Assembly: GCA_026985095.1 (NCBI GenBank) | Contig: JALSQW010000023.1 | Coordinates: 1 to 64,000, forward strand | Direction: 5' to 3' | DNA: 64,000 bases | Source: Acidimicrobiia bacterium | Lineage (GTDB): Bacteria > Actinomycetota > Acidimicrobiia > Spongiisociales > UBA5794 | Shown: positions 11,481 to 58,028 of the stretch, piece by piece | Layout: every line of letters starts with the position of its first letter | Numbering within the stretch: the stretch's first letter is position 1 | Notes under the pieces: generated by a model | Databases searched by the model: none | Told to the model about the DNA's origin: nothing | Seen by the model: the letters and a program-made list of their open reading frames with translations, nothing else | Translations under genes and position numbers: made by a program

Positions 11481-13472
11481 ATGGTCGTCCCAACCGCCGC
11501 CCGCACCGACCCTCCGGGGATCCTGCGCTGGCTCCGGCCGTCCAGCGACGCCGGGTTGCTCGTCCTGGCGCTGATGGTCGGCGCCGGCGCCGGCGCCGGC
11601 GCCGCGATCCTCATCTGGGCCATCGAACTGGTCGACGCCGCGGCCCGGCGGGTAGCCCATCTGCCGATCGAGGAAGCCTGGATGCTGGCGACGGTCCCCG
11701 CCGGCATGTTCGTCGCCTGGGTGCTCACGAGCCGGTTCGCTCCGGAGGTGGCCGGCCACGGCGTTCCGCAGATCATCGCCGCGCTCACCGTCCGTGGGGG
11801 GCGCATCCGTCGGCGCGTGGCGCCGCTCAAGACCGTGGCAACGGCATTGACGATCGGCGCCGGCGGGTCGGCGGGACGGGAGGGCTCGATCGCCCAGATC
11901 GGCGCCGGGATCGGGTCCATGCTCGCCCAGGCGACCAAGCTGTCGGAGCCCGAGATGCGGGCCCTCGTCGCCGCCGGCGCCGGCGCCGGCATCGCCGCGA
12001 CGTTCAACGCCCCCATCGCCGGGATGTTCTTCGCCATGGAGGTGATCCTCCGTGACCTCTCCATCCGTTACCTGCACACGGTCGTCGTCGCGGCCGTGGC
12101 CGGCGCGGTCGTCTCGCATACGCTCATCGGCGACGAGCTCACCTTCCGGGTCGAGGCCTACGCGCTCGAGGATCCCTGGCAGCTCGTGCTCTACGCGATC
12201 CTCGGTCTCGTCGCGACCGGACTGGCGATCGTGTTCATCGAATCCCTCGAGGGGGCGGCGGTCCGGTTCCCGCAGGTCGCCGGGTGGAAACGACCGATCC
12301 TCTTCGGTCTGGTCGTCGGCGCCATCGGCCTGGAGCTCCCGAAGGTGCTCGGCACAGGCCAGCCGTTCATCGAGGAGGTCCTGCAAGGCGACGCCGCCAT
12401 CGCCTGGTGGCTGTTCGCTCTTCTCGCCCTCGCCAAGATCGTCGCCACGTCCGCGACCCTCGGCGGCAAAGGCGCAGGAGGCATCTTCATGCCGAGCTTG
12501 TTCATCGGAGCGATGGCCGGCGCCTCCTTCGCCGAGTTGTCGTCCGTCGTGTGGACACAGTCCTCCCTCCAGGCCGGTGCCTTCGCCCTCGTCGGGATGG
12601 CCGCCGTCTTCTCCGGGGTGGCCCGCGCCCCGTTGACCTCGATCCTCATCGTCTTCGAGGTGACGGGCGACTATGGCCTCGTGATGCCCCTCATGTTGAC
12701 GGTGGCGATCTCGACCTTCCTCGCCAACAAGCTGCACCCCGAGAGTGCCTACACGGCCCCGCTCCTGAGGATGGGCATCCACACGGGCCCGGCCGCCCAC
12801 GTCGATCTCCTCGACACCGTGCGAGTCCGCGACCTCGGCCTGGGCACGCCGGTGACGATCCCTCCCGATGCCACCTTGGGCGAGGTCCGCGGGATCCTGC
12901 AGCGGCGTCGGCTCCACGGCGCCCCGGTGGTCGACGCCAAGGGCCGACTGCTGGGGATCATCGCCGAATCGGACATCCTGCGGGCAGGCGGACCGTCCGA
13001 TCAGGTCCGTGCCCGCGATGCGATGACCCCGAACCCGGCCACGGTGACCGAGGACATGCCGATCTCGGAGGTCCTGGAGCGCATGGCGGTCCTCGGTGTC
13101 GGACGGCTCCCCGTCGTCGCCGGCGACGATCCCGAACGCCTGCTCGGCGTGTTCCGCCGTGAAGACGCGATCAACGCCTATCACCTGGCCCTCGGGCACG
13201 CGGCCCGCCAAGACCGTATGCCCGAACGGGTCCGGGCGCGTCGGTCCGATACGACCGGGTTCTTCGAGATCGAGATCGGCGCCGACTCCCCGATCGCAGG
13301 GCGACGCATCAAGGAGGTGCCGTGGCCGGAAGGGTGTCTCGTCGTGTCGATCCACCGCGGCAACCGGGTCCTGGTCGCCTCCGGCGACGAGGTGCTGCAC
13401 CCCGGAGACGCCCTCACCATCTTCGGCGACGAAGCCGCGCACCGCCGCCTCGCCGAACGCCTCCGCCCCTGA
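11481..13472 (+). CDS. ClC-type chloride channel/transporter with CBS and TrkA-C domains
   Basis: 663 residues: a ClC core (about 25-440), a CBS pair (about 455-580) and a TrkA-C/RCK-C ligand-binding domain at the C-terminus. Selectivity motifs are GHGVP (92-96), GREGS with gating Glu134, and GAGGIFMP. The position after FNAPIAGMFFAM reads Glu-Val where CLC-ec1 has Glu-Glu, so the proton-pathway glutamate (E203 equivalent) is absent. This points to a channel-like or uncoupled transporter. ATG at 11481 lies 7 nt after a TACGCT hexamer (11468-11473), suggesting a leaderless transcript. The frame extends upstream but only into non-conserved sequence. Confidence 0.92.
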   Translation: MVVPTAARTDPPGILRWLRPSSDAGLLVLALMVGAGAGAGAAILIWAIELVDAAARRVAHLPIEEAWMLATVPAGMFVAWVLTSRFAPEVAGHGVPQIIAALTVRGGRIRRRVAPLKTVATALTIGAGGSAGREGSIAQIGAGIGSMLAQATKLSEPEMRALVAAGAGAGIAATFNAPIAGMFFAMEVILRDLSIRYLHTVVVAAVAGAVVSHTLIGDELTFRVEAYALEDPWQLVLYAILGLVATGLAIVFIESLEGAAVRFPQVAGWKRPILFGLVVGAIGLELPKVLGTGQPFIEEVLQGDAAIAWWLFALLALAKIVATSATLGGKGAGGIFMPSLFIGAMAGASFAELSSVVWTQSSLQAGAFALVGMAAVFSGVARAPLTSILIVFEVTGDYGLVMPLMLTVAISTFLANKLHPESAYTAPLLRMGIHTGPAAHVDLLDTVRVRDLGLGTPVTIPPDATLGEVRGILQRRRLHGAPVVDAKGRLLGIIAESDILRAGGPSDQVRARDAMTPNPATVTEDMPISEVLERMAVLGVGRLPVVAGDDPERLLGVFRREDAINAYHLALGHAARQDRMPERVRARRSDTTGFFEIEIGADSPIAGRRIKEVPWPEGCLVVSIHRGNRVLVASGDEVLHPGDALTIFGDEAAHRRLAERLRP

Positions 13473-13493
13473 TCCGGAAGAGGGAGTCCACAT

Positions 13494-13651
13494 CCCAGGG
13501 TTCACCACACCCCAAAAGGGGGCTCCCCAACCCAGGGTTCACCACACCCCAAAAGGGGGCTCCCCAACCCAGGGTTCACCACACCCCAAAAGGGGGGTCA
13601 CCAACCCAGGGTTCACCACACCCCTGAAGGGGGGTCACCAACCCAGGGTTC
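13494..13651. repeat. 37-bp tandem palindrome array, locus 1
   Basis: Five copies of the core CCCAGGGTT sit at exact 37-bp steps (TT at 13501, 13538, 13575, 13612, 13649); most are the full palindrome AACCCAGGGTT. Each interval also holds CCCCAAAAGGGG or CCCCTGAAGGGG, a small hairpin. There are no unique spacers, so this is not CRISPR. The last palindrome (13640-13650) ends 16 nt before the -10 of the MscS gene. A related array lies at 57146-57271. Confidence 0.92.
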
Positions 13652-13678
13652 GGGAGGTCGGGTGCCTACGATGCGGCG

Positions 13679-14581
13679 ATGGACTGGCTCAACCAGACGT
13701 TCGACACCACCAACCTGCTGGGAAGAGCCGTCGTCTCGCTGCTGGTGGTCGCCGGCCTCTACGTCGCACGCCGGGCCGCCGCCCGCTGGTACGTCAGGAC
13801 CGTCGCCGACCCGGACAAGCAGTACCGGGCACGCAAGCTCATCGGCTACGTCTTCGGCGTCCTCACCGTCCTCGCCCTCGGATGGATCTGGTTCCCGTTC
13901 TTCGGCGACCTCGCCACCTTCCTCGGGATCCTGTCCGCCGGTCTCGCCGTCGCCCTCCGGGACCTGTTCACGAACCTCGCAGCGTGGGTGTACATCGTCT
14001 CGCAGCAGCCCTTCGTCGTCGGCGATCGGGTGGAGATCGCCGGCAACGCCGGGGACGTCGTCGACATCCGCGGCCTGCGCTTCACCCTCCGCGAGATCGG
14101 CAACTGGGTGGATGCCGACCAACCGACCGGACGCCTCGTCCACATCCCGAACGGTTTCGTCTTCTCCAACCCGATGGCGAACTACACCAGGGACGTCCCC
14201 TTCGTGTGGCACGAGGTCGAAGTCCTCGTCACCTTCGAATCGGACTGGCGCGCCGCCGAACGGCACCTCCTGGACGCCCTCGCCGGCCAGGCCATCCCCG
14301 ACGACGACGTCTCGACCGCGACCTCGCGGGCCAGCGCGAGACTCGACTATCCGATCGACTACGGCGACACCACCACCGGCACGTACCTCGCCGCGCGGGA
14401 GTCGGGGGTGGCGATCACCGGGCGGGTCCTCGTCGAGGCCCGCCGGCGCCGCCGAGCCAACGACGGCATCTGGCGCACGCTCCTCGACGCCTTCGCCGAC
14501 GACCCGACGGTCGAACTCGCCTACCCGACCGTCCGGAACGTCATCCACGACCCGATCACGGTCGAACGCCCCGACGGGTGA
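13679..14581 (+). CDS. MscS-family small-conductance mechanosensitive channel
   Basis: 300 residues. Two N-terminal membrane helices (about 13-33 and 55-75) are followed by the pore helix region GILSAGLAVALRDLFTNL (about 80-100), the beta-domain (QPFVVGDRVEIAGNAGDVVDI) and the MscS motif HIPNGFVFSNPMANYT near 155-175. It opens under membrane tension to release solutes. The start at 13679 lies 6 nt after TACGAT (13667-13672), so the mRNA is probably leaderless. The upstream 37-bp palindrome array ends in what would be the -35 zone, suggesting dedicated control. Confidence 0.9.
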   Translation: MDWLNQTFDTTNLLGRAVVSLLVVAGLYVARRAAARWYVRTVADPDKQYRARKLIGYVFGVLTVLALGWIWFPFFGDLATFLGILSAGLAVALRDLFTNLAAWVYIVSQQPFVVGDRVEIAGNAGDVVDIRGLRFTLREIGNWVDADQPTGRLVHIPNGFVFSNPMANYTRDVPFVWHEVEVLVTFESDWRAAERHLLDALAGQAIPDDDVSTATSRASARLDYPIDYGDTTTGTYLAARESGVAITGRVLVEARRRRRANDGIWRTLLDAFADDPTVELAYPTVRNVIHDPITVERPDG

Positions 14582-56511: not shown

Positions 56512-57087
56512 CTACGGCGTCGCCGCCTGCACGGCGTTCAACGCGGCCGTCAGCGCCGCCGCCTTGGCGTCGAAGTCCTCCACGGCTCGACGGCGGAGGC
56601 TGCCGTCGTCGGGAGCGCGGAGACCGTCGATGACGGCGTCCGAGGCGGTGACGAGATCGGTGGCGGCCGCCTGCGCCGCAGGCCACAGATCCGGGTAGCC
56701 GTTGGCGTCGGGGACCTCGGTGGCGTCGATCTCCGACGCCAGGGTCTCGGCCCTGGCCTTGACGTCCTCGAAGCCGGCCAGCGCCTGGTCGAAGGCGATG
56801 TCTCGCGCCTCCCATGCCTCGTTGGTGGCGTGAAGGTCCGATTGGATCTCGGTGGTGACCCCCTGGAATCGCTCCACCTCTCCGAGGAACGCCCGGATGT
56901 CGGAAGGAAGCGTCGTCGAGGTGGTGGTGGGTGGCTCGGTGGTGGTCGTCGTCGACGAGGTCGACGTCGTGGACGCGGCGATGTCGGCGGGCGGCAGGGC
57001 GTTCACGAAGACGTAGGTGAACCCGAGCAACCCGACGATCACCAGCGGCAGGATCCAGCGGCCGTGTTTGGGGTCTTCCTTGCTCAC
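56512..57087 (-). CDS. Membrane-anchored protein of unknown function
   Basis: 191 residues: one N-terminal membrane helix (about 10-28, ILPLVIVGLLGFTYVFV), a Ser/Thr linker (about 38-62, poly-Thr), and an Ala/Asp/Glu-rich helical domain (about 65-190) with no family recognised. I prefer the GTG at 57087 because TAACCT (57096-57101, minus strand) lies 8 nt away; the ATG at 57093 two codons upstream would be only 2 nt from that hexamer. The longer open frame upstream is translated 37-bp repeat and not real protein. Confidence 0.65.
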   Translation of the reverse strand: MSKEDPKHGRWILPLVIVGLLGFTYVFVNALPPADIAASTTSTSSTTTTTEPPTTTSTTLPSDIRAFLGEVERFQGVTTEIQSDLHATNEAWEARDIAFDQALAGFEDVKARAETLASEIDATEVPDANGYPDLWPAAQAAATDLVTASDAVIDGLRAPDDGSLRRRAVEDFDAKAAALTAALNAVQAATP

Positions 57088-57145
57088 GGGCATGGAGGTT
57101 AGGAGGTTCCACCGTGATCGTCGGCATCTGCCGCACCCGCCCTCG

Positions 57146-57271
57146 CGAACCCAGGGTTCGCCACACCCCTGAAGGGGGCTCCCCAACCCAGGGTTCACCA
57201 CACCCCTGAAGGGGGCTCCCCAACCCAGGGTTCGCCACACCCCTGAAGGGGGCTCCCCAACCCAGGGTTCG
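57146..57271. repeat. 37-bp tandem palindrome array, locus 2
   Basis: Four AACCCAGGGTT palindromes at exact 37-bp steps (TT at 57157, 57194, 57231, 57268). Each interval carries CCCCTGAAGGGG. The first copy extends to a perfect 15-bp palindrome (57146-57160). The array lies between divergent genes; its last palindrome ends 18 nt before the -10 of the SDR gene, mirroring the array at 13494-13651, about 44 kb away. Confidence 0.92.
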
Positions 57272-57299: not shown

Positions 57300-58028
57300 A
57301 TGGAGTTGGCTGGGCGGAGCGCCATCGTCACCGGCGGAGCGGTCCGGGTCGGACGCGCCATCACCCTCGCCCTTGCCGCCGCCGGCGTCGACGTCTTCAT
57401 CCACTACAACCGCTCGGCCGGACCCGCCCAAGACACCGCCGCCGAAGCCCGCTCCTTGGGCGTCCGCACGGCGATCGGCTCGGTCGACCTCTCCGACCCC
57501 GCCGCCGCCCCCGATCTCGTCGCCATGGCCAGCGACGCCCTCGGCCCGGTGAGCTTGCTGGTCAACTCCGCCTCCGGCTTCCCCGAAGACAGCCTCGCCG
57601 ATCTCACCCTCGACCGCTGGCGGCACACCCACGATCTGACCCTCGCCTCGCCGATCTTCCTCACCCAGGCCTTCGCCGCCGCCCTGGGCGACAACGACGG
57701 CGCCGTCGTCAACGTGACCGACGTCAAGACCCACCGTCCCTACACGAAGCGCTTCTCCTACATCGTCGCCAAAGGCGGCATCGACACCTTCACCCGGGCC
57801 GCCGCCGTCGCCCTCGCCCCCACGATCCGTGTCAACGCCGTCGCCCTCGGGGTCATCCTCCCTCCCACCGGCGAAGACGAGACCTACGCAGCCCGGCTCG
57901 CCGACGAGCTCCCACTCCGACGAATCGGAGGGACCGGACCAGTCGCCGACACCGTGCTGTTCCTCCTCCGCAACGATTTCCTCACCGGCGAGATCGTCCG
58001 CGTCGACGGTGGCGGGCACCTCGTCTGA
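57300..58028 (+). CDS. SDR oxidoreductase, pteridine reductase/FolM-like
   Basis: 242 residues. NAD(P)-binding TGGAVRVGRAITLAL (about 11-25) with VFIHYNRS, NSASGF, the catalytic YIVAK (Tyr, Lys about 158-162) and the C-terminal VDGGGHL. The arrangement GGAxRxGRAI and HYNRS resembles pteridine reductase PTR1 and FolM (dihydromonapterin reductase), and folB and folKE follow directly, so a pterin substrate is plausible. TAGCCT (57288-57293) ends 6 nt before the ATG; the 37-bp array is just upstream. Confidence 0.82.
   Translation: MELAGRSAIVTGGAVRVGRAITLALAAAGVDVFIHYNRSAGPAQDTAAEARSLGVRTAIGSVDLSDPAAAPDLVAMASDALGPVSLLVNSASGFPEDSLADLTLDRWRHTHDLTLASPIFLTQAFAAALGDNDGAVVNVTDVKTHRPYTKRFSYIVAKGGIDTFTRAAAVALAPTIRVNAVALGVILPPTGEDETYAARLADELPLRRIGGTGPVADTVLFLLRNDFLTGEIVRVDGGGHLV

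Follow-up and report, generated by a model that had tools for sequence, protein, structure and literature searches.

Mycobacterial interspersed repetitive units (MIRU) and BOX-type elements occupy a few dozen intergenic loci as short tandem units of variable copy number, with units longer than those described here. The present arrays resemble them in number of loci, in tandem arrangement and in variable copy number, a likeness of description only; to our knowledge no sequence relation is to be expected. Noc-binding sites and the matS sites of MatP are short palindromes that a lineage conserves and that are dispersed along the chromosome, and by description alone the palindrome considered here is of the same kind; such sites are not known to form arrays of fixed period at 3′ ends in which the spacers undergo concerted evolution. 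REPs are extragenic palindromes present in more than 100 copies per genome, clustered, mostly in gaps between tandem or convergent genes, and within about 20 bp of a 3′ end (PMC3733652; PMC2817692). CGTC REPs, too, occur without a dedicated transposase (PMC3733652).

Like REPs and their composite forms (BIMEs), the arrays described here are high-copy extragenic palindromes (more than 100 copies per genome) near 3′ ends. They differ in forming regular direct arrays, in the one-base A/T centre of the palindrome, and in having an 11-bp core common to an order; they also lack a GTAG or CGTC tag at unit ends (in the window's genome), a RAYT-type gene (in this genome and a same-genus relative), and stem covariation within a genome. 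They are REP-like in habit, but not REPs. No description of the core, or of such arrays in Acidimicrobiia, was found in the literature. The reading we prefer, with a probability of about 0.5, is that they form a REP/BIME-like but distinct repeat family, in which the core is a putative site for a dimeric protein and the arrays would act as boundaries at 3′ ends.

Two arrays in the window

The window, the whole 64,000-nt stretch of DNA that was analysed, contains two arrays (Table 1). An earlier note had described array 1 as five palindromes at exact 37-bp spacing, with a CCCC-loop-GGGG dyad in each interval and 16 nt between the last palindrome and a TACGAT hexamer. This description holds, except that the first core (ATCCCAGGGTT) has one mismatch; the dyad, with AAAA or TGAA as its loop, is present in every interval between cores. 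Tandem Repeats Finder reports a period of 37, 4.5 copies and 95% matches, and the exact core occurs eight times in the window as against none in 100 dinucleotide shuffles. Array 2, which the earlier note did not mention, is flanked by the gene of an unidentified protein on the minus strand and a short-chain dehydrogenase gene on the plus strand.

Table 1. Coordinates of the two arrays and neighbouring features in the window
Feature	Position	Strand	Remarks
ClC-type chloride channel gene, CBS and TrkA_C domains	11481..13472	+	stop codon 19 nt before array 1
Array 1: five palindrome cores (first imperfect), 37-bp period, four 26-bp spacers	13492..13650	.	core starts 13492, 13529, 13566, 13603, 13640; all steps 37 bp; last core ends 13650
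First of four 26-bp spacers, CACCACACCCCAAAAGGGGGCTCCCC, central CCCC/GGGG dyad	13503..13528	+	
Exact core AACCCAGGGTT	13529..13539	.	more exact cores at 13566, 13603, 13640
TACGAT, possible −10 of a leaderless mscS promoter	13667..13672	+	16 nt after last core
MscS-type mechanosensitive channel gene	13679..14581	+	ATG at 13679
Array 2: four exact cores, 37-bp period	57148..57269	.	between divergent genes 56512-57093 (−) and 57300-58028 (+)

Distribution in the genome and the order

In the genome to which the window belongs (G000; 2.93 Mb, 70 contigs), an exact AACCCWGGGTT core is found 159 times, and the reversed control never occurs. Forty-one clusters were read with their flanks; two pairs of these (L072/L083 and L074/L081) are the same loci at two contig ends, leaving about 39 places. 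Core spacing is 37 bp, or about 3.5 helical turns, with a few cases of 36, 38 or 61-63, and most loci carry two to six copies. GTDB r220 was scanned for runs of three units spaced 35-37 bp apart, in a search that may pass over records from the genome under study; it matched four species only, titled Acidimicrobiia, Acidimicrobiaceae or Actinobacteria, all of this lineage. The core is frequent in many genomes across the order, at other spacings (12, 24, 36, 61 or 66-80); across the families only the core is common, the spacers being unrelated and the spacings different. Array 1 is one member of an interspersed palindrome-array family peculiar to Acidimicrobiia.

One other family of the order (L221-L230) has tight doublets, AACCCWGGGTT-N-AACCCWGGGTT, at 12-bp spacing and in unrelated surroundings.

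Position relative to genes

None of the 82 arrays with at least two cores in three genomes (G000; its same-genus relative, G001; and G026) lies inside a predicted gene, as called with a simple custom gene caller. They stand close behind genes: in G000 the median distance is 14 nt to facing 3′ ends (n = 44) and 72 nt to facing 5′ ends (n = 26), and the medians to facing stop codons in the three genomes are 14, 15 and 11 nt. Arrays are rare between divergent genes, with 10 convergent, 3 divergent and 22 tandem contexts in G000, compared with 15, 29 and 110 for array-free gaps at the same loci; positions in G001 and G026 are similar. The genes beside the arrays share no theme (ClC, MscS, MscL, SmpB, a sigma-70 factor, acetyl-CoA synthetases, SAH hydrolase and DivIVA, among others). 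With respect to the gene upstream, the arrays are oriented at random (11 to 15), and a strand-specific role such as that of C-rich rut sites was rejected on this ground.

One array (L080:3009-3167) lies directly 3′ of a tRNA gene, and its counterpart in G001 occupies the same position (L122/L193).

Relation to promoters

The earlier note took array 1 for a multimeric operator of the mscS promoter, at a fixed distance from it, and named as evidence to the contrary a genome in which copies lay mostly inside genes or after terminators with no fixed promoter distance. Genome-wide, copies are mostly behind genes, at 3′ ends, and there is indeed no fixed distance. In G000, 23 gene starts face an array at a distance of up to 130 nt. 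Ten of them show a leaderless-type TANNNT, with gaps of 12, 13, 16, 17, 18, 19, 35, 37, 43 and 78 nt between core and −10. In favor of an operator, mscS has its −10-like hexamer 16 nt from the last core, six of the 23 starts have gaps of 12-19 nt, and four orthologous pairs preserve the gap to within about 2 nt. Relatives, however, retain the same −10 regions where the array is missing (L137 compared with L219, L128 with L216), the genes next to arrays are functionally unrelated, and array 1 equally follows the ClC stop codon, which is where it is conserved: G001 keeps an array at the ClC place (L123/L161), in a contig that ends on the mscS side, so this conservation concerns the ClC side only. 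We consider a multimeric mscS operator very improbable. The mscS gene is one of a minority for which an array reaches the −35 region, and this may simply be how near to a promoter an array can lie.

Taken over G000, G001 and G026, gaps of up to 43 nt fall into 12-20 or 32-43 nt, with none of 21-31, a division noticed post hoc and in small numbers.

Core and spacers

The core is held far more tightly than its surroundings. Of 157 in-phase copies in G000, 153 have an exact core, and the centre is A or T in every one of the 157; spacer identity is 93% within an array and 77% between arrays. This supports the earlier note in rejecting a random minisatellite: the core hardly varies while the spacers drift, as would suit an element bound by protein at several sites. 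The core search seeds on exact cores; a second walk followed spacer similarity with no core required, and met 18 departures. Seven of these were units of 36 or 38 bp, shifted in phase by one base, and another seven were AACCGTGGGCY or its complement; the remainder comprised two variants differing at a single base and two places where the array truly ended. G001 gave the same picture, with a few fixed alternatives.

As a second type of core, AACCGTGGGCY (also AACTCTGGGCT) appears repeatedly and in fixed form at L089, L075 and L092 and at loci of G001 and G072; in the latter two genomes such cores often form inverted pairs. A second repeat, guessed from TCTTCCATCGG (common to L216 and L218), was found to be without support. 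A virus-borne origin was also discarded: the lone viral match (L207) has GCAACCCAGGGTTGC repeats, which, judged by eye, are unlike the array.

The conserved symmetry could in principle act in RNA, as GGGTT...AACCC stem-loops serving as intrinsic terminators or protecting the 3′ ends of mRNAs. The position directly after stop codons would suit such hairpins, as would the folding of each unit, which is better than that of shuffled spacers, and a strong 15-bp hairpin, perfectly paired, which occupies the array place in one G001 orthologue lacking the array (L211). Compensatory change in the stems, however, is not seen. When the 3′ halves of spacers were swapped within genomes, with spacers in consistent orientation, native halves paired worse than swapped ones in G000 (−14.2 vs. 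−16.5 kcal/mol) and G001 (−13.9 vs. −16.1), and there was no signal in G026 or JAOUGY; none of the four genomes has an excess of native pairing. Between genomes the central dyads differ in sequence (by eye only). Units have no following T-run, an RNA stem requires neither an A/T-only centre nor complete outer half-sites, and orientation is random. An Rfam scan of 11 loci gave no family above the gathering score except a neighbouring tRNA. A role as RNA hairpins is accordingly unlikely, if less so than the mscS operator.

Because the cores are near-invariant with an A/T centre, the spacers diverge, their two halves show no covariation, and orientation is independent of transcription, the constraint appears to lie on the double-stranded palindrome. 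Judging from sequence, core symmetry and the A/T centre suggest recognition by a dimer on double-stranded DNA.

Same places, rewritten spacers

For at least 27 of the about 39 places in G000, G001 has an array in the orthologous position, with a flank identity of about 87%; this is a lower bound, some places having no retrieved G001 counterpart. Array 2 is among those conserved in place (L192). Spacer identity is 66.8% between orthologous and 66.1% between non-orthologous arrays (56.5% when shuffled), against 77.3% and 82.2% between different loci of one genome. The three-unit 37-bp pattern found throughout G000 has no match in G001, where the usual spacing is 36. Since orthologous spacers are no more alike than non-orthologous ones, and both are less alike than spacers within a genome, the arrays undergo concerted evolution over dispersed loci, in which spacers and period turn over genome-wide.

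Copy number also varies at orthologous places, and arrays have been gained or lost. In G001, the counterparts of L089, L067 and L074 are without a core, and the counterpart of L075 has a single damaged one; conversely, no core is present in the G000 counterparts of L128, L131, L137 and L139.

Such turnover is what one might expect of a selfish or neutral palindromic repeat (REP- or MITE-like) with no host function, spread and homogenized by an enzyme or by gene conversion, and surviving after stop codons because insertions elsewhere are harmful. The invariance of the core could then reflect recognition by the mobilizing enzyme. Placement is like that reported for REPs (PMC3733652), and concerted evolution, gain or loss between close relatives, and variable copy number fit equally well, as does a 1.1-kb segment present in G000 only, exactly between two arrays where G001 has one. 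One argument against this is the lack of a Y1/RAYT transposase: a search for the RAYT domain (Y1_Tnp, PF01797) gave no match in G000 or G001, and among 149 relatives only four have matches, a single one of them (G009) in the same family and itself without cores. A REP/RAYT origin was rejected on the missing Y1 transposase. G000 units also show, by eye, no constant GTAG or CGTC tag beside the core; some G026 units read GTAG two bases on, inconsistently. Further, at least 27 places are inherited, with resident copies keeping exact cores while their spacers drift, and the core persists in families of the order in which spacers and layout differ entirely. A repeat without host function is possible, but we regard it as doubtful.

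The segment in question separates two arrays at L095:4550-5827 in G000, about 1.1 kb apart, where G001 has a single array (L208:1612-1756). It contains an ORF of 191 aa with no Pfam match, and has been gained or lost between array copies.

A possible boundary role

In the boundary reading that we prefer, the functional unit would be the 11-bp double-stranded palindrome AACCC-W-GGGTT, each copy of which would bind a dimeric, sequence-specific DNA-binding protein. Arrays so bound behind stop codons might act as boundaries between transcription units, rather than as switches of the next promoter. They might arrest polymerase or release it, or might pin supercoiling or relieve it. Two observations speak against such a role: three arrays lie between divergent genes, where a role at 3′ ends is inapplicable, yet they are conserved in G001; and some orthologous places have no array.

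More speculatively, the arrays might belong to an undescribed chromosome-wide boundary system of the Acidimicrobiia, in which arrays of AACCCWGGGTT behind genes are recognized by a dimeric protein dedicated to them, and active homogenization replaces the spacers and changes the unit length (37 vs. 36 bp) at dozens of places inherited within the genus.

Whichever reading is favored, the arrays separate three features usually confounded in bacterial repeats: a conserved place, a conserved short site, and a fast-homogenized filler. Two questions thereby become testable: whether some protein marks the ends of genes in this class, most of which is uncultured, and if so which; and by what means short arrays at scattered loci undergo concerted evolution when no transposase is known.

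Some arrays lie where contigs of the draft end, and copy number varies, which might make the arrays usable as typing markers. In the two pairs of contig-end arrays (L072/L083 and L074/L081) the flanks are the same and copy number differs (2 vs. 4) or spacer variants are present; the contig breaks there may reflect strain variation or assembly collapse.
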